DNA of 38,049 nt from an uncultured Pleomorphomonas sp. (GTDB lineage: Bacteria; Pseudomonadota; Alphaproteobacteria; Rhizobiales; Pleomorphomonadaceae). Below the pieces are notes generated by a model. It saw only the letters and a list, made by a program, of their open reading frames with translations, ran no database searches and was not told where the DNA came from. Both the position numbers and the translations under genes were made by a program. This document shows, in pieces, positions 2,151 through 35,090 of the stretch (within the stretch, counting starts at the first letter, position 1; every line of letters starts with the position of its first letter). The DNA is taken from positions 1 through 38,049 of the forward strand of contig CALMMQ010000090.1 in assembly GCA_937868725.1 (NCBI GenBank), in the 5' to 3' direction.

Positions 2151-2183
2151 GCTGACAAGGCCTCCCTGACTGCTTGAACGCGA

Positions 2184-2392: not shown

Positions 2393-2601
2393 CGGCCAGC
2401 TTCGGCTCTGCCAGCGCAACAAGCACAACCTGTCGATCTGGCTCTGTGTCGCAGAGCTGGGAAGGCGTGGTTTTATCTGCGCCCACTCTCGCCGCAGGCA
2501 GTCCCCCCAAATCCCCTCGCGCGTTTCCAGTCGTGTCCGGTCCGCCGAACGCCGTCGATGGTGTTTGTTCGCACGGACTTAACCTCTAAAGGTATCTCAA
2601 G

Positions 2602-3522: not shown

Positions 3523-3535
3523 GGATACGACGATC

Positions 3536-4315: not shown

Positions 4316-4326
4316 AAGGATCCATC

Positions 4327-12440: not shown

Positions 12441-12443
12441 TAG
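11349..12443 (+). CDS. IS630-family transposase
   Basis: A 364-residue DDE transposase. N-terminal helix-turn-helix domains (residues about 15-115) are followed by the RNase H-like core with Asp in CVDEKTQIQA, Asp in VVDNYATHK and Glu in NQVERWF, the DDE triad. It is encoded in a single frame. ATG 11349 gives the usual MAHIGRP start with GGAG seven bases upstream; an in-frame ATG at 11319 directly abuts a GAAGGAGG and would add ten residues. The frame runs through the right inverted repeat (…CKVICGTGH), and its TAG stop is formed by the duplicated target TA plus one flanking G. It acts only on this element and its relatives. Confidence 0.93.
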   Translation: MAHIGRPQERALTLSETERDELVRLGRSQSAPHSLVRRAQIILASADGEANTSIAHRFGVSNPTVCHWRKKWFEQGLVGLYGEARSGRPRTYDEERVASLLRTVLEKKPSERTHWTVRSAAAETGLSKTTVARMLALFGVQPHRSKNFKLSTDPAFVEKVRDIVGLYLNPPDNAVVLCVDEKTQIQALERTQPILPLGLGYAEGVTHDYIRHGTTTLFAALDIANGQVIAQCRQRHRHQEFLSFLKQVDAAVPVGLDAHLVVDNYATHKHPKVRAWLAARPRFHVHYTPTYASWLNQVERWFAILTERQIRRSSSISAKDLVAKIEAFITAYNTKAHPFVWTATSEAILEKVERLCKVICGTGH

Positions 12444-13702
12444 GCGTTCCGCCGCGGTGACTTGGCCCATCAGTTCCAGGGTAAGAAAGCCGTCGAACTT
12501 GGCGACAGCCGGCTTGGCGACATGCCGAGCGAGATCTATTCCGTTGGGAGCCGGAGCGTCGGCTATTTCCCGGAGCGTTTCCTCAATGCCTTCGACGGCG
12601 CAGTCGTCGACCGTGATCACGTGGTGGAAACTTGAGGCTTTGAACTCTTTCATGAGGAGTGCCACCACCAGCGTCTCGAGCTTGCACGTGCCGACCCACG
12701 GGAACAGCAGAACCCCGCGACCGAAGGCGATCACCTGGCGATGGTTGAGTTCGTTGAAAGTTTCGCGCGCCTCGCCGAGTTGCCTGGCGGCTTCTTTGTC
12801 GAGGTAGGTATAATTGTCGGTAGAGGAAAGGACGCGCCGCATGGTGGCAACGATGTGGTCATGCACGTTCCCGCCTCGGCCTGAGAAATACGGCGGCTTG
12901 CCGGCCCGCGTCGGCCTGACCAGGATGACACGAGCCCGGTCGTCGATGTCGGCGATCAGCCAGCGCCGCCCGGAGAAAATGATGGTCTCGCCCGCTGCCA
13001 GCGGCGAGTTGAGCGGATAGGTGCCGAGCCGTTCGTGCTTCGTGGATGATGCGGTATTCGACGTCGGTGGCGAACACCGGGTAGAAGTCGTGGCTCTCGG
13101 TGATCTCCTCCCCGACGGCGCCAACCATCAGCAGTCCGTTGGCGGCCTGTTCGATCAGCTTGCCGTCATTTGGACCGATCGAACGCAGAAGTTCCGTGCC
13201 GATGAAGGCGTGCAGTTCGTCGATGACCACGGCCTCGAAGCGCGAGAACAGTCGCCCAACCTCGCCACCGCGCCGGACCAGCAGCGCCTCCAGAGACTCC
13301 GGCGTGATCAGGACGATACCGCTCAGCCGCTGACGCGCTCGCGCCTTGACGTTGGCCGCGACGTCGCCGTGCCGCTTGGTGACGATGACGTCGCAAGTCT
13401 CGCAGAGGCTTTCGAGACGACGAAACTGGTCGTTGATCAGCGCCTTGAGCGGACTGACGTAGAGAACGGCGAAGCCGTCGGCGGGGGGCATTGCTTGCCG
13501 CGATCCGGCTGAGGAGCGGCAGGAAGGCCGCTTCCGTCTTGCCGGCGGCGGTTCGCGCGGAAATGACGATGTCACCACCGGCGAGGACGACAGGAATGGC
13601 CTTCTCCTGGACGTCGCGCAACGCCTGCCACGTCTGCTTCCAGATTCACTCCCGGACGGGGCGCGACAGCCGGTCAAAGCCGGAAGGTAGCAAGCTCGCC
13701 AT
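12444..13702 (-). pseudogene. Lhr-like DEAD/DEAH-box helicase, broken (BrxHI-like)
   Basis: From ATG 13702 the frame reads MASLLPSGFDRLSRPVRE then TGA where the family normally has Trp (xWIWxQxW), a nonsense mutation. It continues with helicase motif I (ARTAAGKTE), a one-base shift in a six-G run (13483-13488), then YVSPLKALINDQ and the DEAD-type box VIDELHAF. Directly after HAFIGTE the sequence jumps to the distal region (LIEQAANGLLMVG, YFSGRGGNVHD), so several hundred codons with motifs IV-VI are missing. Another shift lies near 13045. The 3' end runs into the palindromic element and IS630. Intact relatives are large Lhr-like helicases that accompany DUF2791 ATPases in phage-defence loci such as BREX type 2. 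This copy cannot be functional. Confidence 0.75.
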
Positions 13703-13905
13703 CCGGGTCGTCTCCACCCTCGATCAGTTGGTGATCGTCGAGGTCGCCGCGATCCTCGGCGATGGCGACGTCGCCGAGAAACTCGCGCCAGCCGGTGCCG
13801 GGGTTCTGTTCGATGATGGCGAGCAGGTCGACGAACGCCTTGACGGTGTTGCGAGGCGTGCGGAAATAGGCTTCACCGATGCGGTTGGCGCAATGACCCG
13901 ACCAC
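13674..13905 (-). pseudogene. DUF2791 / BrxD-like ATP-binding protein, C-terminal fragment
   Basis: The last about 75 codons of a protein whose surviving part includes GEAYFRTPRNTVKAFVDLL and ends GELATFRL at a TGA (13674-13676). This matches the C-terminus I know from DUF2791 P-loop ATPases (BrxD-like), which precede an Lhr-type helicase in BREX type 2 and related defence loci. Here too its end overlaps the start of the helicase pseudogene by 29 bases, the normal operon coupling. The ATPase domain is missing: upstream, near 13905, it is joined to the start of an unrelated gene by a deletion. Assignment from memory of the family, so moderate confidence. Confidence 0.55.
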
Positions 13906-14061
13906 CCGTTCAGCCTGACGGGCGATCAGTCGACCCTTCGAGTTGTTGCCCATCCAGGCGCTCAGTTTGTTGCGGTGTCGCTCCGGTGGCCTCGGCGTGC
14001 CGTCGGACCAGGTAATGGTTGCGCCGATCGGCGCGTCGGAAAATATCGCTTTTGCGGACAT
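13873..14061 (-). pseudogene. N-terminal fragment of a conserved hypothetical protein
   Basis: From ATG 14061 about 52 residues look coding (MSAKAIFSDAPIGATITWSD, then GTPRPPERHRNKLSAW), after which the frame enters the DUF2791-like fragment out of register and stops at 13873-13875. I recall similar starts in rhizobial island-borne hypothetical proteins but cannot name a function. It is probably the 5' end of a longer gene cut by the deletion that also removed the front of the ATPase. Confidence 0.4.
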
Positions 14062-15525: not shown

Positions 15526-15557
15526 TGTATATATATGTCCATCAATGTCCATATACA
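15526..15557 (+). promoter_or_regulatory. candidate GntR operator overlapping the gntR start
   Basis: The segment contains GTGTATATATAT followed by TGTCCATATACA (15546-15557), near-palindromes of the form TGTNTATATACA, close to the TGTATATACA-type sites of HutC-subfamily GntR proteins. The start codon of the regulator (15535) lies between them, so binding would block its own transcription or translation. A matching site lies at 18943. Confidence 0.5.
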
Positions 15558-16284
15558 GCCGGATGCCAGCCTCCCTCAGCCGCTCTACACGCAGCTGGCC
15601 GACATCATGCGTTCGCGCATCACGTCCGGGTTCTGGCCGGCCCATCACAAGCTGGCAGCCGAGCCGGATCTGGCGCAGCACTTCGGCGTCTCCCGCGGCA
15701 CGCTACGCAACGCCATCCGGCTCCTGATGCGCGAAGGTCTGCTGTCGCAGGTGCAGGGGCGCGGCACGTTCGTGCTGCCGGCCCCCGCCGACCGCCCGGA
15801 CAACAACGCCTCGCTCGCCGGTCTCCTCAGGACGGCCGGCATTCCGTTCGAGACGCGGCCGATCAGCCGTCAGTCGATAGAGAGTTCGGACTTCTATGCC
15901 CGCATGATCGGCTCGGGCCCGTATCTGCGCTACGTCCGTCTGCGCTGCCTCGTCGAGGGGCCGTTCACGCTGATGGAAAACGTGCTGTCGGTGCCCGTCT
16001 GCGGCGACATTCCCGAGGAGGTCCGCCTCGATGACGGGTTCTATCAGGTGCTGACACGCGACCTCAGCGTCTCCGTCAGCCATTTCCGCCGCTCGATCAT
16101 GGCGATCGCCGCCCCCAAGGACGCGGCGCCGCTGCTCGAAGTCGCCGTCGGCGCGCCGGTGCTGCGCATCGAACAGGTCGGTTATCTGTCGGACGGGCGG
16201 GCCTTCGAATACGCGACCGCGCTGATCCGCAGCGATCGCCACAGTTTGCGCATGACGGTGGACGGCACCGGGCAGGGACAATGA
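15535..16284 (+). CDS. GntR-family regulator with UTRA domain (HutC subfamily)
   Basis: A 249-residue regulator. The winged helix-turn-helix covers about residues 16-80 (PLYTQLADIMRSRI, then VSRGTLRNAIRLL and QGRGTFV), followed by a UTRA effector domain to about 245. HutC-type proteins respond to small metabolites such as urocanate or sugar phosphates; this one probably senses the compound taken up by the adjacent ABC importer or an intermediate of the downstream enzymes (inference). Similar near-palindromes at its own start and before the aldolase gene at 18973 suggest it controls both units. Its stop codon overlaps the start of the ATPase gene, so regulator and importer are co-transcribed. 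Confidence 0.88.
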   Translation: MSINVHIQPDASLPQPLYTQLADIMRSRITSGFWPAHHKLAAEPDLAQHFGVSRGTLRNAIRLLMREGLLSQVQGRGTFVLPAPADRPDNNASLAGLLRTAGIPFETRPISRQSIESSDFYARMIGSGPYLRYVRLRCLVEGPFTLMENVLSVPVCGDIPEEVRLDDGFYQVLTRDLSVSVSHFRRSIMAIAAPKDAAPLLEVAVGAPVLRIEQVGYLSDGRAFEYATALIRSDRHSLRMTVDGTGQGQ

Positions 16285-17084
16285 AGATGTCTGAAGAGCA
16301 TCAGTTCATCCATCTCGAAGCGATTTCCAAGACGTTTCCCGGCGTCGAGACCGGGCTCACGGTTCTCGATCAAATCGATCTTTCGGTCGGCAAGCGCGAT
16401 TTCGTCAGCTTCGTCGGCCACAGCGGCTGCGGCAAATCGACCCTGCTCAGGATCATCGCCGGCCTCGAGCCGCCGACTGCCGGCAAGCTGATGATCAGCG
16501 GCATGAGCAACGAGGATTATGCCTCCCAGGTGCCGCTCGGCTTCGTCTTTCAGGACGCAGCGCTTCTCCCCTGGAAGACGCTCGCGGAGAACGTCCGCCT
16601 GCCGCTCGACATCCTCGGCATCGAAACGCCGGCCATCCGCAGGACCATGGTGCAGAGGGCCATCGATCTCGTGCGTCTGACCGGCTTCGAGAACCTGTTT
16701 CCCGACCACCTGTCCGGCGGCATGCGCCAGCGCGCCTCGATCGCTCGGTCGCTGGTCTACCGGCCCGAACTGCTGCTGATGGACGAGCCGTTCGGCGCTC
16801 TCGACGACTTCACCCGCCGGGAACTCTCCGACGAACTGCTGCGCATCTGGGGCGAGACCGCCTGCACGGTGCTGTTCGTCACCCATTCGCTTCCCGAAGC
16901 TGTGCTGCTGTCGGACCGGGTCGTCGTCCTCGACAACAAGCCGGGCCGTATCCGCGAGATCGTGCCGATCGACCTGCCGCGTCCCCGCTGGGCCGACGTC
17001 AGGGCGTCCAGGGCGTTCGCCGATCACCTTCTGCATCTCGAGTCCCTGATTTTCGGACACAGGCACCATGACCAGATCTCATGA
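16281..17084 (+). CDS. ABC transporter ATP-binding protein (NitT/TauB/SsuB family)
   Basis: A 267-residue single ABC ATPase. Walker A GHSGCGKST is at residues 46-54, a Q-loop at FVFQDAALLPW, the signature LSGGMRQRASIARSL near 148, and Walker B LLLMDEPFGALDD near 168; the switch His is in FVTHS. The overall match is to the NitT family that drives uptake of nitrate, sulfonates, thiamine precursors, aromatic acids and similar small molecules. It starts with an ATG overlapping the gntR stop (ATGA), with AGGGA upstream; a second ATG two codons later is possible. It powers the permease encoded next, which overlaps its 3' end by 17 bases. Confidence 0.9.
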   Translation: MKMSEEHQFIHLEAISKTFPGVETGLTVLDQIDLSVGKRDFVSFVGHSGCGKSTLLRIIAGLEPPTAGKLMISGMSNEDYASQVPLGFVFQDAALLPWKTLAENVRLPLDILGIETPAIRRTMVQRAIDLVRLTGFENLFPDHLSGGMRQRASIARSLVYRPELLLMDEPFGALDDFTRRELSDELLRIWGETACTVLFVTHSLPEAVLLSDRVVVLDNKPGRIREIVPIDLPRPRWADVRASRAFADHLLHLESLIFGHRHHDQIS

Positions 17085-17856
17085 CGGCAAGCTCGCGCGG
17101 GCAATCAGGCAACGTCTGCCGTCGGCGGCGCTGTTCGCCAGCGTGCTGGTGATATGGGAGCTCGCGGTTCGCATCCTGAAGGTTCCCAACTATCTGCTGC
17201 CCGCCCCGTCGGTGGTCTTCGCCCGCATCGTCACCGACTGGGCGAGCCTCAGCCAGAACGTCTGGGTCACCCTCGAAGCGGCCATCGCCGGCTTCGTCAT
17301 CGGTACGGTCATCGCGGTGCTGGCCGCCTTCAGCTTCCTCTATTCGAAGACGGTCGAACAGGCCGTCTTTCCCTGGGCGGTCGTCATCAAGACCATCCCG
17401 ATCATCGCCATCGCGCCGCTTCTGACCATCTGGCTCGGCTTCGGCATGGCGCCGAAGATCGCCGTGGCGGCCATCGGTTGCGTGTTCCCGACGCTGGTGA
17501 ACATGAATCGCGGCCTAGCCGCCGTCGACCAGCGGGTCATCGACTACCTGCGCGTGCTGCGGGCCTCGCCGCGCCAGCTGCTCGCCCATGCCCGCATCTA
17601 CAACGCCCTGCCGTACCTGTTCTCGGCGATGAAGATCACGGTCGGCATGGCCATGGTCGGCGCCATCGTCGCCGAATTCACCGGCGCCAACTTCGGCATC
17701 GGCACCATCATCGTCAACGCCGGCTACCGGCAGGACGCTACCCTGTTGTTTTCGGCGATATTTCTGTCTTCGGTTGCAACGTTGGTGCTCTACTACGTCG
17801 TTCTGGCAATCGAGAAGGTCGCGCTGTTTTGGCCAGGGGCAAGCGTGGACCACTGA
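17068..17856 (+). CDS. ABC transporter permease (NitT/SsuC/ThiX family)
   Basis: A 262-residue inner-membrane permease with about six membrane helices. The cytoplasmic coupling loop of the BPD_transp_1 domain is visible (RVLRASPRQLLAHARIYNAL is its EAA-type segment, about residues 162-181), and it ends with a hydrophobic pair of helices typical of SsuC/ThiX proteins. It would form a homodimer with the preceding ATPase and receive substrate from the binding protein encoded next. Only 30 bases separate it from that gene. Confidence 0.9.
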   Translation: MTRSHDGKLARAIRQRLPSAALFASVLVIWELAVRILKVPNYLLPAPSVVFARIVTDWASLSQNVWVTLEAAIAGFVIGTVIAVLAAFSFLYSKTVEQAVFPWAVVIKTIPIIAIAPLLTIWLGFGMAPKIAVAAIGCVFPTLVNMNRGLAAVDQRVIDYLRVLRASPRQLLAHARIYNALPYLFSAMKITVGMAMVGAIVAEFTGANFGIGTIIVNAGYRQDATLLFSAIFLSSVATLVLYYVVLAIEKVALFWPGASVDH

Positions 17857-17886
17857 GTAGCCCCTAATAACAAGGGAACGAAACAC

Positions 17887-18858
17887 ATGAACGGATTTAT
17901 CAAGGCCGCCATGGCTTCGGCCATGGTGATGGGCACTGCTGTCTCGGCGCAAGCGCTGGAAAAGGTCAGCCTGCGCATGTCCTGGTTGCTCAACGTCCAG
18001 GGCGCCGGCTACGTCATGGCCAAGGAGAAGGGCTTCTACGCCGATGAAGGGCTGGACGTCGACATCATGCCCGGCGGCCCCAACCTCAACTCGGTGACGC
18101 TGGTGGCGACCGGTCAGAACACCTTCGGAACCAACGACATCTCCTCCGTCCTGTTCGGCAAGTCGCAGGGTATGCCGCTGTCGGTGATCGGCGCCTGCTT
18201 CCAGAAGACGCCGGCCGGCGTTCTCTCGCTCGCCAAGACCGGCATCAAGACGCCCAAGGATCTCGAGGGCAAGACACTGGCCTTCAACGAGGGCGGGCCG
18301 TGGACCTACACCCAGGCCATGCTGGCCAAGGCCGGCGTTGACATGAGCAAGGTCAAGACCGTCACCGTGATGGGCAACGAAGTCCTGATGAACGGGCAGG
18401 TCGACGCCAAGACGGCCTTCATCGTCAACGAGCCGATCGCCATCGAGCTCGCCGGCTACCCGACGGCGACACTGGCCGCCGCCGACTATGGCGTTCAGGC
18501 CTATTCGGAAGCCATCGTCGCCAGCGACAGCTACGTGGCCGAGAACCCGAAGATCGTCGCCGCCTTCATGCGGGCCACGGCCAAGGGCTGGGAGTACGCC
18601 CTCGACAACAAGGAAGAGACGGTCAAGGCCGTGGTGGCGCTGAACGCCGAACTCGACAGCGAACAGCAGTCGCGCCAGCTCGCCATGCAGGAGGACTTCA
18701 TCCGCAGCGAGTTCACCAAGACCAACGGTCTCTGCGCCGTCGATCCGGCCGCCGTCGAAGCCGGCGCGGCGACGCTGCACGAGTTCGCCGGGCTCGACGT
18801 CAACTTCGATCCGAAGGCGATCACGCATTCGGAGTTCAACGCCGCCGCGTCCAAGTAA
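17887..18858 (+). CDS. ABC transporter substrate-binding protein (NMT1/ThiY-like)
   Basis: A 323-residue periplasmic binding protein. A Sec signal peptide occupies residues 1-23 with cleavage after AQA. The mature part begins VSLRMSWLLNVQGAGYVMAK and EKGFYADEGLDVDIMPGG, the NMT1/ThiY pattern seen in binding proteins for pyrimidine thiamine precursors, riboflavin and small aromatics. The ligand is unknown, but this family favours flat heteroaromatic or acidic compounds, a useful hint for the downstream enzymes. The ATG follows AAGGGAA. It closes the importer unit; the 114-base gap after it holds a GntR-like site. Confidence 0.85.
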   Translation: MNGFIKAAMASAMVMGTAVSAQALEKVSLRMSWLLNVQGAGYVMAKEKGFYADEGLDVDIMPGGPNLNSVTLVATGQNTFGTNDISSVLFGKSQGMPLSVIGACFQKTPAGVLSLAKTGIKTPKDLEGKTLAFNEGGPWTYTQAMLAKAGVDMSKVKTVTVMGNEVLMNGQVDAKTAFIVNEPIAIELAGYPTATLAAADYGVQAYSEAIVASDSYVAENPKIVAAFMRATAKGWEYALDNKEETVKAVVALNAELDSEQQSRQLAMQEDFIRSEFTKTNGLCAVDPAAVEAGAATLHEFAGLDVNFDPKAITHSEFNAAASK

Positions 18859-18942
18859 GCGGACTTCGCCGCCGGGCTCCGACGCGGGCCCGGAGGCAGA
18901 CGCGCAACGGACGCTGGACATGACGGCGAATTTGAACATAGA

Positions 18943-18954
18943 TGTCTATATACA
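18943..18954 (+). promoter_or_regulatory. candidate GntR operator before the aldolase-UbiX unit
   Basis: TGTCTATATACA is a near-perfect palindrome (half-site TGTNTA) and matches 11 of 12 bases of the site at 15546-15557 inside the gntR start. It lies 19 bases before the aldolase ATG, just ahead of the AGGAGA ribosome binding site, where a bound repressor would block expression. Confidence 0.55.
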
Positions 18955-18972
18955 AATGCTAGGAGACAATTC

Positions 18973-19803
18973 ATGAATGGCCGCGCCATCCGCACCAGCC
19001 AGCTACTGAACCCCGCGACCGGCAAGGCCGTCATCATCGCCTTCGATCACGGTGGCACCGGTGTTCCGAAGGGCGGCGCCGACGTCGCCGGCATCCTGGC
19101 GGCCATCGGCCGTTCCCGCGCCGAAGCGGTTCTGATCGGCTGCGGCAACGCCCGCTCCTACGCCGCTTCCTTCGCCCGTCCGGGGGCGCCGCGACTGGTG
19201 GTGTCCATCGACGGGCCGGTGTTCTCTTCGGTCTGCGGTGAGCACGGCAAGCTGGTCGAACAGTCCCGCCACGCCTCGGCCGAATATGCCATGCGCCTCG
19301 GTGCCACCGCCGCCAAGATCCTGCTGCCGGTCGGTACCGACGACGTCGCTATCTTCCGCCGCGGCGTCGAGCTGGTCCGCGAGGCCGTCATGGAATGCGA
19401 GCAGGTCGGCCTGCCGCTCATGGTCGAGCCGGCGCTGTGGGGCCCGCGCGCCAACGAAAAGGACAATCAGCTGATCGAGCACGCCGCCCGCATGTCGGTC
19501 GAACTCGGCGCCGACATCCTGAAGATTCCCGCGCCGACCGACGCCGCCGTCCTGGCCCGCATCGTCCGAAATTCGCCGGTGCCGGTCATGGTGCTGGGCG
19601 GCGCTCCGCGCGACGCCGAGAGCTTCACGCGCGACATGCAGGACTGGATGACCACCGGCGTCGCCGGCGTCGTCATCGGCCGCAACGTCTGGAGCCGCCC
19701 GCATCCCGACAAGGCGGTCGAGGCTCTCGCCGCCGCCGTCCACGACAACGATCCCACCGCCGTTGCCCGCCATTGGCAGGACGCCGGTGCGCCGGCCGCC
19801 TGA
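18973..19803 (+). CDS. class I aldolase of the DhnA/LsrF family
   Basis: A 276-residue (beta/alpha)8 aldolase of the DeoC/LacD/DhnA superfamily, which contains archaeal-type fructose-bisphosphate aldolase and LsrF (which acts on phosphorylated autoinducer-2). Lys184 in DILKIPAPTD is the likely Schiff-base lysine; IAFDHGGTG near the start and the phosphate-binding GGAPRD and VVIGRNVW segments near the end are family features. Together with the FGGY kinase two genes on, it suggests that a phosphorylated intermediate is cleaved or has an acyl group moved; the substrate is unknown. The ATG follows AGGAGA. First gene of the second GntR-controlled unit. Confidence 0.8.
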   Translation: MNGRAIRTSQLLNPATGKAVIIAFDHGGTGVPKGGADVAGILAAIGRSRAEAVLIGCGNARSYAASFARPGAPRLVVSIDGPVFSSVCGEHGKLVEQSRHASAEYAMRLGATAAKILLPVGTDDVAIFRRGVELVREAVMECEQVGLPLMVEPALWGPRANEKDNQLIEHAARMSVELGADILKIPAPTDAAVLARIVRNSPVPVMVLGGAPRDAESFTRDMQDWMTTGVAGVVIGRNVWSRPHPDKAVEALAAAVHDNDPTAVARHWQDAGAPAA

Positions 19804-19813
19804 GGTGATGACG

Positions 19814-20848
19814 ATGACGTACAAGGCCATGGTCCTGTCGGCTCCCCGGACCATCGAGGCGAGGTGGATCGAACGCCCGACGGTCGGGGCGGGCGAAGCG
19901 CTGGTGCGGGTTCGCGCCGCCAACCTCTGCCCGACCGATATCAAGAAGTGGAAGGACGATTCGCTCGCGAGGCTGCTCGCCGATACGCCGCTGATCCTCG
20001 GCCACGAGATGGCCGGGGAGATCGTCGAGATCGGACTGGGCTGCGGCGCCTTCGCGGTCGGCGACCGCGTCGCCATCGATCCGGTGCTGCGCAGCCTGGC
20101 TCCCGACGGCCGCGAGTACCTCAAGGGCATCGGCGCGGCCGCCGGTTCGTCGACCGACAACGTCGCCCTGCTGCGTGACGAAGGCATCGGCGGCGGCTTC
20201 GCCGAACTCGTCAAGGTTCCCGCCGGCAACCTCATCGCGCTGCCCGACGACGTCAGCTTCGAAGCCGCCAGTCTCATCGAGCCCCTCGCCGACATCGTGC
20301 ACGGCATCACCAAGTCGGGCGATGTCAGCGGCAAGCGTTGCGCCGTCTTCGGCCTCGGCCCCATGGGGCTGATGCACGTGGAACTGCTGGCGTTTCTCGG
20401 CGCCGAGGTCGTCGGTGTCGATCCCAGAGACGACAGGCGCGAGGAATCCCTGTCATTCGGCGCCAAAATGGCGGTCGCGCCCGGCCAAACGCCGCGCGTC
20501 GACGTCGCCTACGTGGCGGCCGGCGGCGGCGCTCTCGCACCGGCCTGCGCCGAGGCGCTGAAAGCGCTCGGCAAGGACGGCAAGCTGGTGATCTTCGCCT
20601 CCGGGACCAAGGACGCGTCCATTCCCCTCGACCTCAACGCGGTCCACTATGGCAACCAGACGGTCATCGGCGTCGTCGGCTTCCGCCCGGAGGACGCGAC
20701 GCGGACGATCGAACTGCTCGGCCAAGGCGCGATCGACGTCGACCGTATCCGCCATCCGCTCATCGGGCTGGATGGTCTTCAGGAGGCATTCGGCAAAATG
20801 GGCGAACCCGGAACGTTCAAGTACGGCATCGACCTTGCCCGGACCTGA
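19814..20848 (+). CDS. zinc-type medium-chain alcohol/polyol dehydrogenase lacking the structural zinc loop
   Basis: A 344-residue medium-chain dehydrogenase. Catalytic-zinc features are present: Cys in ANLCPTDIKKW, the HE pair in LGHEMAGEIVE, and a Rossmann FGLGPMGLMH. The four cysteines that normally hold the structural zinc are absent; the segment DPVLRSLAPDGREYLKG replaces them. The enzyme would oxidise a hydroxyl to a carbonyl with NAD(P), plausibly feeding the aldehyde dehydrogenase downstream. The start chosen is ATG 19814, with GAGG eight bases upstream; ATG 19808 is in frame but overlaps that site. Its 3' end overlaps the FGGY kinase start, indicating translational coupling. Confidence 0.82.
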   Translation: MTYKAMVLSAPRTIEARWIERPTVGAGEALVRVRAANLCPTDIKKWKDDSLARLLADTPLILGHEMAGEIVEIGLGCGAFAVGDRVAIDPVLRSLAPDGREYLKGIGAAAGSSTDNVALLRDEGIGGGFAELVKVPAGNLIALPDDVSFEAASLIEPLADIVHGITKSGDVSGKRCAVFGLGPMGLMHVELLAFLGAEVVGVDPRDDRREESLSFGAKMAVAPGQTPRVDVAYVAAGGGALAPACAEALKALGKDGKLVIFASGTKDASIPLDLNAVHYGNQTVIGVVGFRPEDATRTIELLGQGAIDVDRIRHPLIGLDGLQEAFGKMGEPGTFKYGIDLART

Positions 20849-22088
20849 CGAGCCACTGGTCCTCGGCGTCGACGTCGGCAGCCATGGTGTCCGCTGCGTC
20901 TGCGGATCCCACAGCGTCGACGTCGCCTACGCCGGGCCGCCGCCGCCCGCCCGCAGGCCAGCGCAACAGTGGACGGACGCGTTCGTCGAAGCGCTTTCGC
21001 GCATTCCCGAAAGCGACCGGCAAAGGGTGCAGGCGGTCGGCATCACCGGGGTGCGCGGCGCTTTCGTCGTCGCCGACGCCGAACTCGGGCCGCTCATGCC
21101 GACGATCCCGGACTTCGCCCCGGAAAGCGTCCCGCTCGCCCGGGAGCTCCGGACGAAGTACGGCCGCGATCTGATCGGACGCACCGGCTGCCCGGCGTTT
21201 CCCCTGTCGGGCCTGCCGAAACTGATGGCGCTGCCCGACACCCTCGGGCCGTCCGCCCGCGTGCTGCCGCCGCAGGACTTCGTCGCTTCGCTTTTGACCG
21301 GCAAGGCCCGCCTGTCGGCCGGAGCGGCCCTGCGGCTCGGCTGTCTCGATCCGCGCATCGGCGACATCGACCGCGAACTCCTCGCCGAACTGGGCATCGC
21401 CGAAACGCTATTTCCCCCCGTCGTTCCCATCGGTGAACGTCTCGGCGACAACCGGCATCCGCTGCTGCCGCTCGGAATCCCGGTCGTGTCGGTGGCCGGC
21501 GACGGACCGTCGGCCCGCGCCGCCGTGGCCGGGAAAGGCGACGGTCTCGTCAGTCTCGGCACGACCTCCGTCTGCCTCTTGCCGATCGCCGGCGACCGTC
21601 TGCCGGACATCGACCTGACGGTCGAGCTCGATCCCATGGGCGGCCGTCTCGCCGAGTACGGCTCGGGCATCGGCGGCGTCGCCATCGACTGGCTGGCGCG
21701 GCTGACCGGCGTCGGGCCGGGGCGGCTCGAGGAAGCGAGCCGGGGCGTCGATTACGGTCCGCTCGTCGTCGAACCGACCTTCGTTTCCGCCTGGGGCGAC
21801 GCCCCCGGCGCCCGCCTTGCCAACATCTTGCCGGATACCACCGTACCGGCAATCGCCGCCGCGCTGTTCGATGCCATCGGGCGCGACGCGCTCGCCTCGA
21901 TCGGCATGCTTGCCGCTGTGGCCGGGATGCCGCCCCGGATCTACCTCACCGGTGGCTGCGCCAGGTCGGCGAGGGTGGTCGACCTGCTCAGAACGAACCT
22001 CGCCTGCGACGTCATCCCCCGGGGCGACCGGGAACTCGCCGCCGCCGGCGCCGCCGGAACCGCCCGCCATTACGCACTTGGACGATGA
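20835..22088 (+). CDS. FGGY-family carbohydrate kinase (short form)
   Basis: A 417-residue FGGY kinase, shorter than the usual about 500. The N-terminal ATPase-fold start VLGVDVGSHGVRC (phosphate 1), GITGVRGAF, and the C-terminal SLGTTSVCLLP and YLTGGCARS nucleotide-binding motifs are visible. Such enzymes phosphorylate sugars, polyols or autoinducer-2 (LsrK). No specific substrate can be assigned. No ATG fits; the best start is TTG 20835, overlapping the dehydrogenase stop, which keeps the whole fold. Pairing of an LsrK-type kinase with an LsrF-type aldolase recalls the lsr system, but the rest of lsr is absent and the importer is of another kind. Confidence 0.78.
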   Translation: MPGPDEPLVLGVDVGSHGVRCVCGSHSVDVAYAGPPPPARRPAQQWTDAFVEALSRIPESDRQRVQAVGITGVRGAFVVADAELGPLMPTIPDFAPESVPLARELRTKYGRDLIGRTGCPAFPLSGLPKLMALPDTLGPSARVLPPQDFVASLLTGKARLSAGAALRLGCLDPRIGDIDRELLAELGIAETLFPPVVPIGERLGDNRHPLLPLGIPVVSVAGDGPSARAAVAGKGDGLVSLGTTSVCLLPIAGDRLPDIDLTVELDPMGGRLAEYGSGIGGVAIDWLARLTGVGPGRLEEASRGVDYGPLVVEPTFVSAWGDAPGARLANILPDTTVPAIAAALFDAIGRDALASIGMLAAVAGMPPRIYLTGGCARSARVVDLLRTNLACDVIPRGDRELAAAGAAGTARHYALGR

Positions 22089-22091
22089 TCG

Positions 22092-23579
22092 ATGACCGAT
22101 GCCCTGCTCGCTTCCATTCCGAAGGATCTCTTCCTCGCCGGCAAATTCGTTCCGGCTTCCTCCGGCCAACGCTTCACGACCCTCGATCCGGCGACCGGCG
22201 ACGCGCTCGCCGAGGTCGCCCGCGCCGACGCCCGTGACGTCGACGTCGCCGTCGCCGCTGCCAAGGCGGCGTTCGAGGATGGCCGCTGGCGTCTGATGCC
22301 GGGATCGCGGCGCGCCGAAATCCTCTGGAAGGTCGGCGAACTCATCGAAGCCAACGCCGACGAGCTGGCGCTGCTCGAGAGTCTCGACAACGGCAAGCCG
22401 GTCGCCGCCGCCCGCAACATCGACCTGCGTCAGGCGGCGCAACATTTCAAGTACCACGCCGGCTGGTGCACCAAGATTGAGGGCGAGACCATGCCGGTGA
22501 GCTGGCCGCGCCATCTCGCCTACACCACCCGCGAACCGGTCGGCGTCACCGCCAACATCACGCCGTGGAACTATCCGATCATCATGGCCGCCCGCAATCT
22601 GGCGCCGGCGCTCGCCTGCGGCAATTCGGTGATCCTGAAGCCTTCGGAGGAAACGCCTCTGACGGCGCTCTACCTCGCCCGTCTTCTCGCCGAAGCCGGC
22701 CTGCCCGAGGGCACGCTCAGCGTGCTGCCCGGATTTGGCGGCGAAGCCGGCGCGGCGCTCGCCGCCCACGGCGATGTCGACCGGCTGTTCTTCACCGGCG
22801 GGCACGTGACGGCGCGCAAGATCGTCGAAGCCTCGGCCGGCAACTTCAAGCGCCTGACGCTCGAACTCGGCGGCAAGACACCCTTCATTGTCTTCCCGGA
22901 CGCCGATATCGACGCCGCTCTCGCCGCTGCGGTGAACGGCGCCTTCATCAACCAGGGTCAGAACTGCTGTGCCCTGTCGCGGCTCTACGTCCACGGCGAC
23001 ATCGCCGACGGCTTCATCGAGGCGCTGGTCGCCCGCACCGAGGCGCTGCGCGTCGGTCCGGGAACCGATCCCCGAAGCAATCTCGGCCCGCTGATCTCCA
23101 GGGCTCATCTCCAGCGCGTCTGCGGCCACATCGACAACGCCAAGGCCGACGACGCCCGCCTTCTCTCCGGCGGCGACCGCCTCGACGGTCCCGGCAATTT
23201 CCTGCGTCCGGCGATCTTCGACCGGGTCGCCGACGAGGCGCGGCTGACGTCGGACGAGGTGTTCGGGCCGGTGTTGGCGGTCTACCGCTTCAAGTCGTCC
23301 GTCGAGGCCATAGCCCGCGCCAACCGCTCGCCCTACGGTCTGTCGGCTTCGGTCTGGACGCAGGATCTGTCGCGGGCGCACGAGATCGCCGCCCGCATCC
23401 GGGCCGGTACGGTGTGGGTCAACTGCTTCTCCCGCTTCGACAGCGCGGCGCCGTGGGGCGGCGTCAAGCAGAGCGGCTACGGCACGGGTATCGGCGCGCA
23501 CGCCATCGACGAATATACCCAGCCCAAGGCCGTCTGGATCGACACCAGCACCGGCGCCGGCAAGGAGTTCGCCCCGTGA
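22092..23579 (+). CDS. NAD(P)-dependent aldehyde dehydrogenase
   Basis: A 495-residue classical aldehyde dehydrogenase. The nucleotide-binding NITPWNYPI, the general base Glu258 in LELGGKTP and the nucleophile Cys292 in GQNCCALSR are all in place; the glycine motif reads FFTGGHVTA instead of FTGSxxxG. It turns an aldehyde into the carboxylic acid, which would logically be the substrate of the adjoining UbiD decarboxylase. Resemblance is to the betaine/gamma-guanidinobutyraldehyde group, which is broad, so the aldehyde is unknown. The gene starts three bases after the kinase stop, and its TGA overlaps the GTG start of ubiD. Confidence 0.9.
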   Translation: MTDALLASIPKDLFLAGKFVPASSGQRFTTLDPATGDALAEVARADARDVDVAVAAAKAAFEDGRWRLMPGSRRAEILWKVGELIEANADELALLESLDNGKPVAAARNIDLRQAAQHFKYHAGWCTKIEGETMPVSWPRHLAYTTREPVGVTANITPWNYPIIMAARNLAPALACGNSVILKPSEETPLTALYLARLLAEAGLPEGTLSVLPGFGGEAGAALAAHGDVDRLFFTGGHVTARKIVEASAGNFKRLTLELGGKTPFIVFPDADIDAALAAAVNGAFINQGQNCCALSRLYVHGDIADGFIEALVARTEALRVGPGTDPRSNLGPLISRAHLQRVCGHIDNAKADDARLLSGGDRLDGPGNFLRPAIFDRVADEARLTSDEVFGPVLAVYRFKSSVEAIARANRSPYGLSASVWTQDLSRAHEIAARIRAGTVWVNCFSRFDSAAPWGGVKQSGYGTGIGAHAIDEYTQPKAVWIDTSTGAGKEFAP

Positions 23580-24970
23580 AGAAGCTCGACGCCTTCATCG
23601 GGGACGGGCCGCACCATCCCTCCAGCCTCAGGGCCTTTCTCGCGGCGCTGCCGGAGCGACAGGCCCTGACCGTCGATCGCGACGGCGCCGAGGACTTCGT
23701 CGCCACGGCGCTGGTTCTCGAAATGGAGCGTCAGGGCCGCGACGAGGTGGTCGCGTTCACCGGCGGCGACGTCCCGGTGGTCACCAACATCTTCGGCAGC
23801 CGCGAGCGTATCTGCGCCATCGCTGGCGCCCATGACCAGCCGAGCTTCTCCGATCGCTGGATGGGCGCGCTCGCCGCCGGCATCCGGCCGGAGGTCGTCG
23901 CCGGCGACGCGCCGGTGCAGGAGGTGGTCATCCGCGGCGATGCCATCGACGCCGGCAAGCTGCCGATCTCGCAGCATTTCCGCGACGACGCCGGCCGCTA
24001 CATCGGCTCTGGCGTGCTGATCTGCAAGGATCCGGACACCGGCGTCCGCAACCTTTCCTACCAGCGGCTGCAGCTCAAGGGGCCGGCTCTGTTCGGGGCC
24101 AGCCTGCATTCGCGCGGCCACATCTGGGAACACCTCCAGCGCTCGAAAGCGCGCGGCAGGAACCTGCCGGTCGCCGTGGTGATCGGCGTCCACCCGGCGA
24201 TCAACCTCGCCGCCTCCGCCAAGGTGGCCATGGAGGTCGACGAACTCGACATCGCCTGCGGTCTCATCGGGCAGCCGATCCCGCTGGCGCGCTGCCTGAC
24301 GATCGACGTCGAGGTGCCAGCCTACGCCGAGTACGTCATCGAAGGCGAAATCCTCTGCGACGAGGAGGCCGACGAAGGCCCCTACGGCGAATACACCGGC
24401 TATTCGACCTATCGATCGACGCGCAACCTGTTCCGGGTTTCGGCGATCACCCATCGCCGCGCCCCGGTGTTCCACGACATCATCCCCGGCTACTCGCAGG
24501 AACACCTGCTGCTGGCGCGGGCGCCGCGCGAGGCCATCCATTTTGCGCGGCTTCGCGAGGCCGTGCCGCAGGTGACGGCGCTGACCTATCCCAAGTCGGG
24601 GACGCATTTCCACGCCTACGTCACCATCGCCAAGACGGCGGAAGGGCAGGCGAGGCAGGCGCTGATGGCGCTGTTCGGGCTCGACCCTTACGTCAAGCTG
24701 GCGATCGCCATCGATCCCGAAATCGACGCCACCAACGATCAGGACGTCCTCTGGGCGCTTGCGACCCGTTTCCAGGCCGATACCGACATGTTCATGGTCC
24801 CGAACGTCCTGTGCAACCGCCTCGATCCGTCGTCGCGGCAGGGCATGGCGGCGAAGATGGGCCTCGACGCCACCACGCCCGCCGACTGGGACGGCCAGCG
24901 GACGGCGCTGCCCGACACGGCGCGGCAACTGGCGGCACTGATCCTCAAGGACGCCCCGGCCCATGAGTGA
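23576..24970 (+). CDS. UbiD-family decarboxylase (prenylated-FMN dependent)
   Basis: A 464-residue UbiD-family (de)carboxylase. The hallmark EGPYGEYTGY puts Glu267 and Glu272 five residues apart, as in the catalytic pair of fungal Fdc1, and Arg164 in NLSYQRLQLK is a candidate for the third catalytic residue. These enzymes use prenylated FMN to remove CO2 from aromatic, heteroaromatic or alpha,beta-unsaturated acids. Members include furan-, pyrrole- and protocatechuate-type decarboxylases; this one cannot be narrowed further. The GTG start overlaps the aldehyde dehydrogenase stop and has AAGGAG eight bases upstream. The cofactor enzyme UbiX is encoded immediately after, overlapping by eight bases. 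Confidence 0.88.
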   Translation: MKKLDAFIGDGPHHPSSLRAFLAALPERQALTVDRDGAEDFVATALVLEMERQGRDEVVAFTGGDVPVVTNIFGSRERICAIAGAHDQPSFSDRWMGALAAGIRPEVVAGDAPVQEVVIRGDAIDAGKLPISQHFRDDAGRYIGSGVLICKDPDTGVRNLSYQRLQLKGPALFGASLHSRGHIWEHLQRSKARGRNLPVAVVIGVHPAINLAASAKVAMEVDELDIACGLIGQPIPLARCLTIDVEVPAYAEYVIEGEILCDEEADEGPYGEYTGYSTYRSTRNLFRVSAITHRRAPVFHDIIPGYSQEHLLLARAPREAIHFARLREAVPQVTALTYPKSGTHFHAYVTIAKTAEGQARQALMALFGLDPYVKLAIAIDPEIDATNDQDVLWALATRFQADTDMFMVPNVLCNRLDPSSRQGMAAKMGLDATTPADWDGQRTALPDTARQLAALILKDAPAHE

Positions 24971-25556
24971 GAAACCCCGCGAACGCGTCATCGTCGGCAT
25001 CACCGGGGCGTCGGGCGCCGTCTACGGCCTCCGCTGTCTCGACCTGCTGCGCGAGGCCGGCGTCGAAACCCATCTCGTCGTCAGTCGGGCCGGGGAACTG
25101 ACGCTGCGTCACGAGGCCGGCCTCGGCCTCGCCGACATGAAAGCGAGATGCGACCATCTGCATCGGATCGGGAACGTCGGCGCCAGCATCGCCAGCGGTT
25201 CCTTCCGCGTCCGCGGCATGATCGTCGCACCCTGTTCGATCCGGACCCTCTCCGAGATCGCCTCGGGCATCACCTCGAGCCTGCTGACGCGCGCGGCCGA
25301 CGTGATGCTGAAGGAGCGCCGGCCGCTGGTGCTGATGGTCCGCGAGAGCCCGCTGCATCTCGGACATATCCGGTCCATGGCGGCCGCCGCCGAGATCGGC
25401 GCCATCATCGCCCCGCCCATGCCGGCCTTCTACACCGCGCCGCGTTCGATCGAGGACCTCGTCGATCATTCGGTGTCGCGAAGCCTCGGCCTGCTCGGTC
25501 TCGACGACATCGCCGTCAAAAGCTGGACCGGCCTCGGCGACAGGGCGGGGGACTGA
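24963..25556 (+). CDS. ubiX: flavin prenyltransferase UbiX
   Basis: A 197-residue flavoprotein that prenylates FMN (from dimethylallyl phosphate) to make the cofactor of UbiD enzymes. The N-terminal GITGASGAVYG (from about residue 13) binds the flavin phosphate; APCSIRTLSEIASG and the C-terminal PAFYTAPRS(I) segment are family-typical. Its start overlaps the ubiD end, which fixes its role: supplying cofactor to the decarboxylase next to it rather than, or as well as, ubiquinone synthesis. It ends the operon; the oppositely oriented tetR gene ends 30 bases away. Confidence 0.92.
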   Translation: MSEKPRERVIVGITGASGAVYGLRCLDLLREAGVETHLVVSRAGELTLRHEAGLGLADMKARCDHLHRIGNVGASIASGSFRVRGMIVAPCSIRTLSEIASGITSSLLTRAADVMLKERRPLVLMVRESPLHLGHIRSMAAAAEIGAIIAPPMPAFYTAPRSIEDLVDHSVSRSLGLLGLDDIAVKSWTGLGDRAGD

Positions 25557-25586: not shown

Positions 25587-26279
25587 TCATTGCGATCCCT
25601 GCTGCGGCACCAGGCTCGACAGTACCGTGTCGACGATCGTCCGCGCCGCGACGTCGAAATCGCCGCGCCGGAGTTTGGGTTGCTCCAGCGCGTCGCAGGC
25701 CAGGATTTCGAAGTCGGCATAGAACTGGGTCATGCCCCACAGCATGATCAGGAGATGGCGGGGATCGACCGGCCTGAGCTTGCCGGCAGCGATCCAGCCG
25801 TCGATGGTCGCCGCGTGGGTGCGCGTCACATCGCGCATGTGCTGACGGTCCTTGCGGCTCAGGAAGCGGGCGCCGCCGATGATCTCGCTGGCGAAGACGC
25901 GCGATTCCTCGCCGTGCTTGCGGGCGTGCTCCAGCTTGGCGCGAACGTACCCTTCCAGCGCCCGGCGCGGGTCGGCGTCGGGAGTGATGTGCGCGAGCGC
26001 CGCGTCCCAGTCGCCGATGAGGCGCTTGATCACGGCGTCGTAGACGTCCTCCTTGGAGGAAAAATAATAGTAGACGTTGGCTTTGGGCAGGCCGGCGGCC
26101 TCGGCGATCTCGGCGATGCGCGTTCCCTCGAACCCCTTGCGGGAAAACAGCGTCGTCGCCGCCTTGAGGATGCGGGCGACGTTGCGACGGCGGACGCCGT
26201 CCTCGCGACCGCCGTCGGGTGCGGCCGGCTTGCGCCGCGTGTCGCCCTTGACGGGCTCGCCGATACCATCTCCGTCCAA
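25587..26279 (-). CDS. TetR-family regulator, RutR-like
   Basis: A TetR/AcrR regulator with the helix-turn-helix at about residues 30-75 (TRIAEIAEAAGLPKANVYYYF), very close to the RutR/YcdC branch, and a matching C-terminal domain (VARTIVDTVL). RutR senses uracil/thymine and binds TTGACCANNTGGTCAA; two such sites lie between this gene and the nucleoside importer, supporting regulation by a free pyrimidine base. The chosen start is TTG 26279, nine bases behind AGGGGA, giving about 230 residues; an in-frame ATG at 26372 would add 31 residues unusual for the family and lacks a ribosome binding site. It is divergent from the operon it probably controls. Confidence 0.85.
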   Translation of the reverse strand: MDGDGIGEPVKGDTRRKPAAPDGGREDGVRRRNVARILKAATTLFSRKGFEGTRIAEIAEAAGLPKANVYYYFSSKEDVYDAVIKRLIGDWDAALAHITPDADPRRALEGYVRAKLEHARKHGEESRVFASEIIGGARFLSRKDRQHMRDVTRTHAATIDGWIAAGKLRPVDPRHLLIMLWGMTQFYADFEILACDALEQPKLRRGDFDVAARTIVDTVLSSLVPQQGSQ

Positions 26280-26443
26280 GGTGCCTGTCCCCTTTCTCCG
26301 GGCTTCCGGGTGTTGCCGGTCGTATCCATTTTTGCAGATCTGGTCGGGAAAGCCAATTCGAAAAGCAGACATACTGCTTAATTTATCGCACTTCGCCTAA
26401 ACAATAAGCGATTGACGAACAACAACTTATTGCCGAATTAAAA

Positions 26444-26461
26444 TCTGACCAAATGGTCAGA
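26444..26461. promoter_or_regulatory. RutR-box-like operator 1
   Basis: TCTGACCAAATGGTCAGA is palindromic except for the central AA. It contains the complete TGACCANNTGGTCA core known for RutR. It lies upstream of the candidate importer promoter and on the promoter side of the tetR gene. Confidence 0.75.
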
Positions 26462-26478
26462 AAAACAGGACAAAGAAG

Positions 26479-26508
26479 TTGACTCTTTGGTCAGGTCGCG
26501 CCTATGCT
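26479..26508 (+). promoter_or_regulatory. candidate importer-operon promoter with RutR-box-like operator 2
   Basis: TTGACT (26479-26484) and TATGCT (26503-26508) are separated by 18 bases. The -35 is part of a second, weaker RutR-like box, TTGACTCTTTGGTCAG (26479-26494), so repressor binding would exclude RNA polymerase. The leader to the first gene is then about 230 bases. Confidence 0.6.
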
Positions 26509-26594
26509 CGACCCCAATGGAAGAAGCGACGGCCGACATCCCAGGCGATGAACGGGCCGCGACATTCAGGGACTGCCACACGAAATCCGACCGA

Positions 26595-26655
26595 CGCGCC
26601 GTTTGGCGCGCGTGGTCTGGTGTCCGTAATCGATCGCGGGCCGGCGTCTGCCGGC
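26595..26655 (+). other. two hairpins in the leader of the nucleoside operon
   Basis: CGCGCC-GTTT-GGCGCG (26595-26610) and GCCGGC-GTCT-GCCGGC (26640-26655) are perfect six-base stems with four-base loops in the 5' leader. There is no T-run. An open frame from ATG 26517 crosses the leader and ends on the first gene's start (ATGA), but its composition is not gene-like. Confidence 0.35.
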
Positions 26656-26746
26656 GCCGGTCGCCGCGATCCGGTCGGGCGTCTCCGTCGCTCTTTCAGG
26701 ACGAGGTCACTCGCGCCGATGGCGCCTTGAGCCGAGGAAGCATCCC

Positions 26747-27805
26747 ATGACCAGATTCCTGTCCGATCTCGACGGTTTCGGCCGTCCGCTTTCGCGTCGT
26801 ACCCTTCTGAAGGCCGCCGCCGGCACCGCGGCGGCGGGAGTCGCCACCGGCCTCCTGCCGGCGATGGCGGCCGGCGGCCTCGTGGCCCTGGTCCACACCC
26901 AGGCGGCCGGCGACAACGGTCCCGTCGACAGCATGATCGAGAAGCTTACCGCCCTTGCCAAGGACAAGGGCTTCGAGACGCGCGTCGTCTACGCGGCCGA
27001 TCCCGCCACCTACGAGACGATCTTCCGCACGCTCGGCGACGCCGGCGCTTCCATCATCGTCTCGACCTTCAACGAGGTGGCCGAAGCCTTCAAGGCGCTG
27101 GCACCCGAATACCCCGACACCAAATGGATCCAGCTGTTCGGCGACCCGATCGAGCCGTCGCTGCCGAACGTCGTCACGGTGTCCTACGACTACTATCTCG
27201 GCTGCTATCTCTCGGGCCTGTTCGGCGCGCTGGTCTCCTTGACCGGCAAGCTCGGCTACATCGGCGGCATCTCGATACCGCCCCTCAACGCCGACGTTAA
27301 CGCCATCAAGGTCGGTTCGGCCGCCGTCAAGGCCGACGCCACGCTGTCGGCGGCGTTCGCCGGTTCGTTCCAGGATCCGGCCAAGGGCCAGGAAATCGCG
27401 ACGCAGATGTACAAGGGCGGCATCGACTACATCCAGACCGACTCGGCGGCCACCGACGCCGGCATCATCGCCGCCGCCAACGAGGGCAAGAACCTGATGG
27501 TCAGCGCCATCTCGCCGGCGCAGTACAAGCTCGGTCCGTCGACCGTGATCTCGCTGGTATCGCTCGATTTCGGGCAGTCGCTCCACAACGAAGTCTCCCG
27601 TGCCCTGGCCGACGGCTGGAAGGGCGGCCACGTCAGCACCGGTCTCGGCACCGGCGTCATCGACTTCCTGCTGTCGCCGGTGTTTGTCGAGAAGGGACCG
27701 GCCAAGCTCGTCGCCAAGGCCAAGGCGGTCTGGCCGCAGGTGGAGGCCGCTAAGGCCGACATCATCGCCGGCAAGCTCGAGGTCCCCTTCAACACGACTC
27801 TTTGA
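26747..27805 (+). CDS. BMP-family (PnrA-like) nucleoside-binding protein of an ABC importer, Tat-exported
   Basis: A 352-residue periplasmic binding protein of the BMP/Med/PnrA family, whose studied members bind purine or pyrimidine nucleosides. The N-terminus has a twin-arginine signal SRRTLLK (residues 16-22) followed by an Ala-rich helix, so it is probably exported folded through Tat, less usual for this family. Family features include the LVHTQAAGDNGP start and LGCYLSGLFGALVS. With the ATPase and two permeases that follow it makes a four-component importer of the BmpA-NupABC kind. The choice of nucleoside as ligand rests on family and on the nucleoside hydrolase and phosphorylase in the operon. 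Confidence 0.85.
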   Translation: MTRFLSDLDGFGRPLSRRTLLKAAAGTAAAGVATGLLPAMAAGGLVALVHTQAAGDNGPVDSMIEKLTALAKDKGFETRVVYAADPATYETIFRTLGDAGASIIVSTFNEVAEAFKALAPEYPDTKWIQLFGDPIEPSLPNVVTVSYDYYLGCYLSGLFGALVSLTGKLGYIGGISIPPLNADVNAIKVGSAAVKADATLSAAFAGSFQDPAKGQEIATQMYKGGIDYIQTDSAATDAGIIAAANEGKNLMVSAISPAQYKLGPSTVISLVSLDFGQSLHNEVSRALADGWKGGHVSTGLGTGVIDFLLSPVFVEKGPAKLVAKAKAVWPQVEAAKADIIAGKLEVPFNTTL

Positions 27806-27823
27806 CGAGAGAGCACCCGCGCG

Positions 27824-31319: not shown

Positions 31320-31327
31320 GGTTCATC

Positions 31328-32583: not shown

Positions 32584-32590
32584 GGCCATC

Positions 32591-34132: not shown

Positions 34133-34133
34133 G

Positions 34134-35075: not shown

Positions 35076-35090
35076 TCCTCCGGAGACACC

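Follow-up and report, generated by a model that had tools for sequence, protein, structure and literature searches.

The stretch of DNA analysed here (the window) is the entire 38,049-base contig C90 (CALMMQ010000090.1) of an assembly of an uncultured Pleomorphomonas sp., 4,128,266 bases (4.13 Mb) in size. At positions 15535-25556 it carries ten genes with intact reading frames, all on the plus strand, which encode a regulator, an importer and six enzymes. An earlier note, made from the DNA letters, had named these genes and arranged them in two co-regulated units. Their identities and positions are confirmed: the reading frames are in place and the Pfam and NCBIfam families agree. The ten genes likely constitute one pathway, and below we discuss what kind of compound might be its substrate.

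Genes and operator-like sites of the locus

The first gene encodes a GntR/UTRA regulator (15535-16284; Pfam UTRA 8.5e-23, GntR 1.7e-14). It is followed by the genes of an ATP-binding cassette (ABC) importer: a NitT/TauB-type ATPase (16281-17084; Pfam and NCBIfam), a BPD_transp_1 permease (17068-17856; Pfam) and an NMT1/THI5-type substrate-binding protein (17887-18858; Pfam NMT1 2.3e-57). The closest solved chains of the binding protein are 4nmy and the N-formyl-aminopyrimidine-binding 3ix1. Its predicted structure, with a mean predicted local distance difference test (pLDDT) score of 34.2, was not used.

The enzyme genes begin with a DhnA/DeoC-type class I aldolase (18973-19803; PF01791 1e-28). 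Alignment with solved relatives (MJ0400, an archaeal fructose-bisphosphate aldolase and LsrF) places K184 on their lysine, and GG209-210 and GRN236-238 on their glycine loops; we take these to be the Schiff-base lysine and the phosphate loops, respectively. Family match, conserved lysine and glycine loops together make the protein a member of the DhnA/DeoC class I aldolases. Next comes a medium-chain Zn dehydrogenase resembling threonine and polyol dehydrogenases (19808-20848; Pfam and NCBIfam), which contains C41, H66, E67 and a glycine-rich motif. The following FGGY carbohydrate kinase is diverged (20835-22088 from an inferred TTG start; the FGGY_N match is on the shorter frame 20853-22088). 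Positions 10-417 of a three-orthologue profile cover residues 3-437 of the xylulose kinase 2itm, and it is by this sequence profile that both domains of the FGGY fold are recognised; the Pfam FGGY_C model has no match in the window kinase, and a predicted structure (mean pLDDT 44.9) was too poor to be used.

The last three genes encode an aldehyde dehydrogenase (22092-23579; Aldedh 1e-170, with QNCC and LELGG motifs), an HmfF-like UbiD decarboxylase of the type that uses prenylated flavin mononucleotide (prFMN) (23576-24970 from an inferred GTG start; Pfam UbiD 4.3e-62, from 23585), and a UbiX flavin prenyltransferase (24963-25556; NF004685 243.7 bits against a cut-off of 188). UbiD exceeds the curated cut-off of its family (TIGR00148, 300.2 bits against 244.85). 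Its closest solved chain is 6h6v, the furan-2,5-dicarboxylate decarboxylase HmfF (304 bits), followed by 7p9q, the indole-3-carboxylate decarboxylase AnInD (180 bits). The E(D)-R-E network is present as R164, E267 and E272, with the UbiX partner adjacent. In the alignment with AnInD, R164 corresponds to R155 and E272 to E266; excerpts of PMC8988006 name these AnInD residues. UbiD shares EGPYGE at 267-272 and H310 with HmfF, in which the counterpart of H310 is the histidine of REHLLL, counted as 296. Excerpts of PMC7976604 report H297 of HmfF as key for furan-type substrates, and we equate the two histidines; this equation is our own.

Spacings along the ten genes are -4, -17, 30, 114, 4, -14, 3, -4 and -8 bp. 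Most neighbours thus overlap or almost abut, which agrees with the tight packing described in the earlier note, and the widest gap of 114 bp lies directly 5' of the aldolase gene. Both this gap and the regulator start carry operator-like sites. Over the regulator start (15531-15557) there are two 10-bp-phased ATGTCCAT repeats, with TGTATATGGACATT on the minus strand at 15544-15557; the second site (18938-18954) contains TGTATATAGACATC on the minus strand at 18941-18954. The word TGTATATRGACATY was built from these two sites and hence fits both, on the minus strand, by construction. The whole 4,128,266-base assembly contains no further exact match, and with up to two mismatches the word occurs at 15 places, compared to 4 for a reversed-pattern control. 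The sequence ATGTCYAT occurs three times in the window, each time at an operator-like site; as 5 of 100 shuffles also reach three, this count by itself is weak evidence for operators. Similar operator-like sites are thus present at the starts of both units, as described in the earlier note, and the common candidate operator word, the joint presence of the genes, and strand and gene order support one regulator for both units. A wider regulon was considered and rejected: the nearest further match, with one mismatch, is at position 4605 of contig C40 inside a Cas3 gene and was judged to be chance. That gene (Cas3_HD, Cas3-like_C_2; 1939-4647 of region L029) is followed by frames that on manual reading resemble a type I CRISPR (clustered regularly interspaced short palindromic repeats) system.

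The cluster in other genomes

The class, phylum and order searches described here cover samples of larger groups, with the best 4-6 candidates per genome scored. Among 297 sampled genomes of the order, UbiD of this subtype was found at E<=1e-100 in three: that of the window, G981 (67% identity) and G937 (63%). The latter two represent two genera of one family, which is not that of the window. An aldolase profile run against 397 sampled order genomes gave three at E<=1e-45, and these are the same three. The aldolase and UbiD subtypes travel together within the sampled order genomes, and independent use of the two units is without support.

G937 has all ten genes in identical order (region L028) at 50-79% identity. 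The values are 62% for the regulator; 69, 72 and 68% for the ATPase, permease and binding protein of the importer; 79, 66 and 50% for aldolase, dehydrogenase and kinase; and 63, 62 and 60% for aldehyde dehydrogenase, UbiD and UbiX, respectively. In G981 (L027 with L032) the order is regulator, aldolase, dehydrogenase, kinase, importer genes, aldehyde dehydrogenase, UbiD and UbiX, on a single strand and without a break. Here the regulator, also of the UTRA type, is 44% identical, and the six enzymes are 62-63% (aldolase), 57% (dehydrogenase), 35% (kinase), 67% (aldehyde dehydrogenase), 67% (UbiD) and 60% (UbiX) identical. The importer is of another kind: its binding protein belongs to the BMP family, its ABC ATPase is double, and its two permeases are of the BPD_transp_2 type. 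In this sample the importer is exchangeable and the six enzymes are kept. Its position between kinase and aldehyde dehydrogenase marks two enzyme blocks, aldolase-dehydrogenase-kinase and aldehyde dehydrogenase-UbiD-UbiX. The shared operator word, the conserved cluster and the co-occurrence in the same three genomes make one pathway likely. That the two units serve a single pathway, as the earlier note expected, is supported by subtypes that occur only together in the sampled order genomes and by the unbroken run of importer and enzymes in G981.

Operator-like sequences are also seen in the relatives. By eye, the regulator start of G937 has three 10-bp-phased repeats, one of which, ATAGATGTCTAT, shares a 12-base identity with the second site of the window, and that of G981 has a more degenerate array in the equivalent place. 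A clear second site before the aldolase was not found in either relative, so the enzymes there may rely on the upstream promoter alone.

The set is rare. Of 120 relatives searched for the aldolase at E<=1e-30 one has it, and so does one of 385 class genomes at E<=1e-22, each hit being the window itself; at E<=1e-60 it is found in 2 of the 28 genomes in the family of G981 (G981 and G937). For the kinase, 398 phylum genomes yielded a single hit at E<=1e-20, again the window. None of the 13 other genomes of the window's genus has the aldolase at E<=1e-30. Together with the estimated contamination of the assembly (4.56%) this fits horizontal transfer or misbinning of contig C90, and given that contamination the host assignment of the contig is not certain.

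Some genes near the relatives' clusters deserve mention. In G937 a DUF2390 gene (L028 8575-9069) sits on the opposite strand between UbiD and UbiX, and genes for hydantoinase A and B, an NMT1_3 binding protein (presumably of the TAXI type) and a transporter (L033 525-7354) are divergent from the regulator gene. In G981 an Indigoidine_A gene (L032 2095-3048), which has no NCBIfam match and which we take to be PsuG-like, lies 131 bp upstream of the regulator gene and in the same orientation. Each of the three genomes has one copy of it; in the window's genome and G937 that copy is away from the operon, and no pfkB-like neighbour was found there within about 3 kb on each side; we did not retain it as part of the pathway.

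A possible route from a ring-polyol

From what is observed at the locus (the gene set, the operator-like sites, the co-occurrence, the importer swap and the families) we infer a single inducible operon for the catabolism of a (hetero)aryl-glycerol, in which a CHOH-CHOH-CH2OH chain is attached through carbon to a flat ring. Every reaction and substrate is read from the families and their arrangement, and we give this reading about an even chance. The ABC importer would take up the ring-polyol, and the GntR/UTRA protein would repress both units until a ligand binds. The Zn dehydrogenase would oxidise the middle hydroxyl to give Ar-CHOH-CO-CH2OH (Ar, the aryl ring), the FGGY kinase would phosphorylate the terminal hydroxyl, and the class I aldolase would cleave the ketone phosphate to Ar-CHO and dihydroxyacetone phosphate (DHAP), the latter entering glycolysis. 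The aldehyde dehydrogenase would convert Ar-CHO to Ar-COOH, from which UbiD, using prFMN from UbiX, would release CO2 and ArH. Since UbiD needs an acid on an aromatic or unsaturated carbon, the aldehyde would be Ar-CHO and the start compound Ar-CHOH-CHOH-CH2OH. It is possible, at somewhat less than an even chance, that a heteroaromatic compound is stripped of its glycerol chain in this way, via ketone, phosphorylation and retro-aldol cleavage to DHAP followed by prFMN decarboxylation, and that this would be the first assigned bacterial use of a (hetero)arylglycerol. Candidates under such a route are compounds such as imidazole-glycerol, indole-glycerol and neopterin.

The arrangement aldolase-dehydrogenase-kinase suits a conversion of polyol to ketose, ketose phosphate, and then DHAP and an aldehyde. 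The earlier note had instead paired the Zn dehydrogenase with the aldehyde dehydrogenase, so that both would oxidise a ring CH2OH to the acid for UbiD while kinase and aldolase act on a sugar part. The identical enzymes would suffice for this, and HmfF itself acts on a diacid formed by oxidation of hydroxymethylfurfural (cf. PMC12064950). However, the dehydrogenase gene stands between aldolase and kinase genes in all three genomes and is separated from the aldehyde dehydrogenase gene in G981. The same grouping was seen at part of the plasmid loci that carry the nearest aldolases. From the 20 matches listed of 251 records, 11 loci were examined with 5-6 kb flanks: 5 carry near the aldolase a medium-chain alcohol dehydrogenase, matched by the window dehydrogenase at 29-33%, 6 carry a kinase with an FGGY-family or glycerol kinase annotation, and 3 (L011, L014, L040) carry both. 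No UbiD or aldehyde dehydrogenase was found at any of the 11, either by annotation or by tblastn within the flanks. Because of gene order in three genomes and at part of the plasmid loci we reassign the dehydrogenase as the putative ketone maker, and the older pairing is unlikely. If the dehydrogenase belongs with aldolase and kinase, the aldolase may feed its aldehyde to the aldehyde dehydrogenase and UbiD, and the two modules become one line. The idea of the earlier note that the substrate combines a flat unsaturated ring with a sugar-like part is supported. A plain hydroxymethyl-heteroaromatic compound, its example, is a weak candidate, as it would leave kinase and aldolase without an obvious role.

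The importers give a further hint on the ligand. From the Pfam families we take those of the window and G937 to be of the COG0715 kind and that of G981, which looks like a nucleoside-type importer, to be of the COG1744 kind. According to excerpts of PMC4418817, RibY (COG0715) and RfuA (COG1744) both bind flavins, which are ligands of the ring-plus-polyol kind. The swap of NMT1 for BMP importers and the flavin-binding members of both types suggest that a ring-plus-polyol ligand would suit both. These flavin-binding members would also suit a ribityl-heterocycle such as riboflavin or lumazine, which 4'-oxidation, 5'-phosphorylation and retro-aldol cleavage would turn into DHAP and a ring-N-CH2-CHO that is then oxidised and decarboxylated. 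In that case the acid would be on an sp3 carbon, and we know of no such UbiD substrate. The FMN riboswitch also stays below the Rfam threshold throughout the window and the relatives' regions scanned, and a ribityl substrate is decidedly improbable. No riboswitch of any kind exceeds the threshold in the window, L027, L028 or L033. A fluoride riboswitch (RF01734, 50.7 bits against a threshold of 34) is found in G981 at L032 7829-7889, roughly 6 kb from where the operon begins.

Regarding the ring of the proposed aryl-glycerol, it is probably a heterocycle. The HmfF-like UbiD and the importer relatives speak for a heterocycle containing N or O that bears a polyol chain. Excerpts of PMC7976604 describe UbiD chemistry as favouring electron-rich positions (pyrrole, furan, indole). 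Judged by the families, an imidazole, indole, furan, pyrrole or uracil-like ring would fit this chemistry best and a pterin (neopterin) would fit the importers well; the electron-rich preference ranks imidazole-, indole-, furyl- and pyrrolyl-glycerol above neopterin.

Several points weigh against the aryl-glycerol route. The kinase is conserved at just 35-50% among the three genomes, and its substrates may therefore differ. An FGGY-type kinase is missing near 5 of the 11 plasmid aldolases and an alcohol dehydrogenase near 6, and among the six annotated locus kinases that of L038 (27%) is the sole match to the window kinase at E<=1e-4. The plasmid loci thus appear to resemble the window in arrangement more than in kinase sequence. 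Two loci examined among the 10 listed FGGY matches have no such aldolase annotated, and the FGGY scan of genome contigs gave one locus, 24% identical. COG0715 and COG1744 importers take many ligands; according to excerpts of PMC4418817 some RibXY are suggested for methionine or thiamine and Rfu riboflavin transport is confined to spirochaetes. The importer argument for a ring-polyol is thus weak. The electron-poor C6 of a pterin would fit UbiD chemistry badly. No ring-degrading gene is among the operon genes, and the cluster does not explain the fate of the ring. Intradiol dioxygenase (PF00775) has three matches in G981 but none in either G937 or the genome of the window, which makes a lignin-type arylglycerol with full use of the ring less likely in the latter two.

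The substrate need not be aromatic. UbiD might decarboxylate an acrylic-type sugar acid, with kinase and aldolase processing the rest: alpha,beta-unsaturated acids are also accepted by UbiD enzymes (excerpts of PMC8988006), and the end of a 3-oxo-tetronate cluster lies 8 kb upstream of the ten genes. Nevertheless UbiD is nearest to the heteroaromatic HmfF/AnInD branch and has the histidine that we equate with the key residue of PMC7976604 (excerpts), and four tetronate genes have no match at E<=1e-4 in the fetched regions around the relatives' loci; an unsaturated sugar acid is improbable. A biosynthetic role was also weighed, in which the aldolase would condense DHAP with an aldehyde in the manner of GriI/BagB-type enzymes or 2-amino-3,7-dideoxy-D-threo-hept-6-ulosonate (ADH) synthase. 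In NCBIfam the aldolase does match ADH synthase (120.6 bits) and BagB/FevI (76.8), and UbiD matches BagN/FevL (117.7), but all are far below the cut-offs of 299.45, 500 and 1000, respectively, and the aldolase does not reach the ADH synthase equivalog. Biosynthetic partner genes were not seen in the three operons, and the dedicated importer and UTRA regulator would point to catabolism. Biosynthesis is highly improbable.

The flanks of the cluster hold other genes. The tetronate-type C4 sugar-acid cluster (254-7221) contains 3-oxo-tetronate 4-phosphate decarboxylase, L-threonate dehydrogenase and 3-oxo-tetronate kinase, which exceed NCBIfam cut-offs, a LacI regulator and a GntP permease (Pfam) and, on manual reading, an isomerase-like gene. 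At 11319-14015 a DDE_3 transposase frame, presumably IS630-like, adjoins broken helicase-like frames (the latter by manual reading), a sign of an earlier insertion near the cluster. Directly downstream (25587-36428) are genes for a TetR protein, a BMP-type importer, a TRZ/ATZ-type amidohydrolase, nucleoside hydrolase and thymidine phosphorylase and, on manual reading, VOC and SDR proteins; this region reads as a nucleoside catabolism cluster, and its BMP protein is just 27% identical to that of L027. Like the four tetronate genes, the nucleoside genes tested have no match in the relatives' regions, which places both flanks outside the ten-gene unit.

If the aryl-glycerol route is true, DHAP-aldolase catabolism would reach from sugars to aromatics with sugar-like tails, and the acids for UbiD would have a new origin upstream. 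Such a route offers a concrete and cheap substrate panel for an orphan UbiD, class I aldolase, FGGY kinase and two orphan importers together, and the GntR/UTRA regulator could act as a sensor for ring-plus-glycerol compounds.

Comparison with known systems

The earlier note knew of no described pathway with this gene set. Among the papers listed in searches of one open-access library, neither a matching pathway nor an assigned substrate was found, which is no proof of novelty. The closest enzymes by UbiD are HmfF and AnInD: UbiDs of the window type are 43-47% identical to the compared HmfF segment in all three orthologues, share EGPxGE and the histidine, and have a UbiX partner. The context is different, as the cluster has a polyol module and none of its ten genes looks like one for furoate degradation.

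Plasmid clusters of Ponticoccus (L005), Paracoccus (L006) and Sinorhizobium meliloti (L007) have a 41-43% identical UbiD, which also contains the equivalent of H310, an adjoining UbiX and a GntR gene; L005 has an NMT1 importer and L007 a nucleobase permease. They differ in that ring-oxidising and hydrolytic enzymes replace the side-chain enzymes, and the GntR protein of L007 is of the FCD and not the UTRA type. Annotated in them are xanthine dehydrogenase-type subunits, a GTP-binding protein (CobW, tested in L007) and amidohydrolases (Amidohydro_2 where tested). The combination looks like heterocycle catabolism, and no account of such a pathway was found among the papers listed in the open-access library.

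The polyol modules on plasmids of Rubrobacter, Phyllobacterium and Halomarina (L011, L014, L040, L010) all have a DhnA aldolase (31-33% identity) and an alcohol dehydrogenase (29-33%), and three of the four have an annotated FGGY kinase. In contrast to the window, no aldehyde dehydrogenase or UbiD was found there, a sugar-type importer and/or dihydroxyacetone kinase is present, and their kinases are unmatched by that of the window at E<=1e-4. The autoinducer-2 system with LsrK and LsrF likewise combines an FGGY kinase and a DhnA-type protein; the window aldolase, however, scores 76.3 bits against the LsrF-type equivalog cut-off of 297, and none of the ten genes looks like LsrG.

DHAP-aldolase routes are known for sugars such as fucose, rhamnose and sulfofructose. 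If the proposed route is right, it shares with them the kinase, the aldolase that yields DHAP and an aldehyde, and the oxidation of that aldehyde. It differs in the DhnA type of the aldolase and in a prFMN decarboxylase acting after the aldehyde, which to our knowledge is not part of those routes. The parts are of known kinds, and their combination, DHAP-aldolase catabolism with a prFMN decarboxylase attached, is new as far as could be tested.

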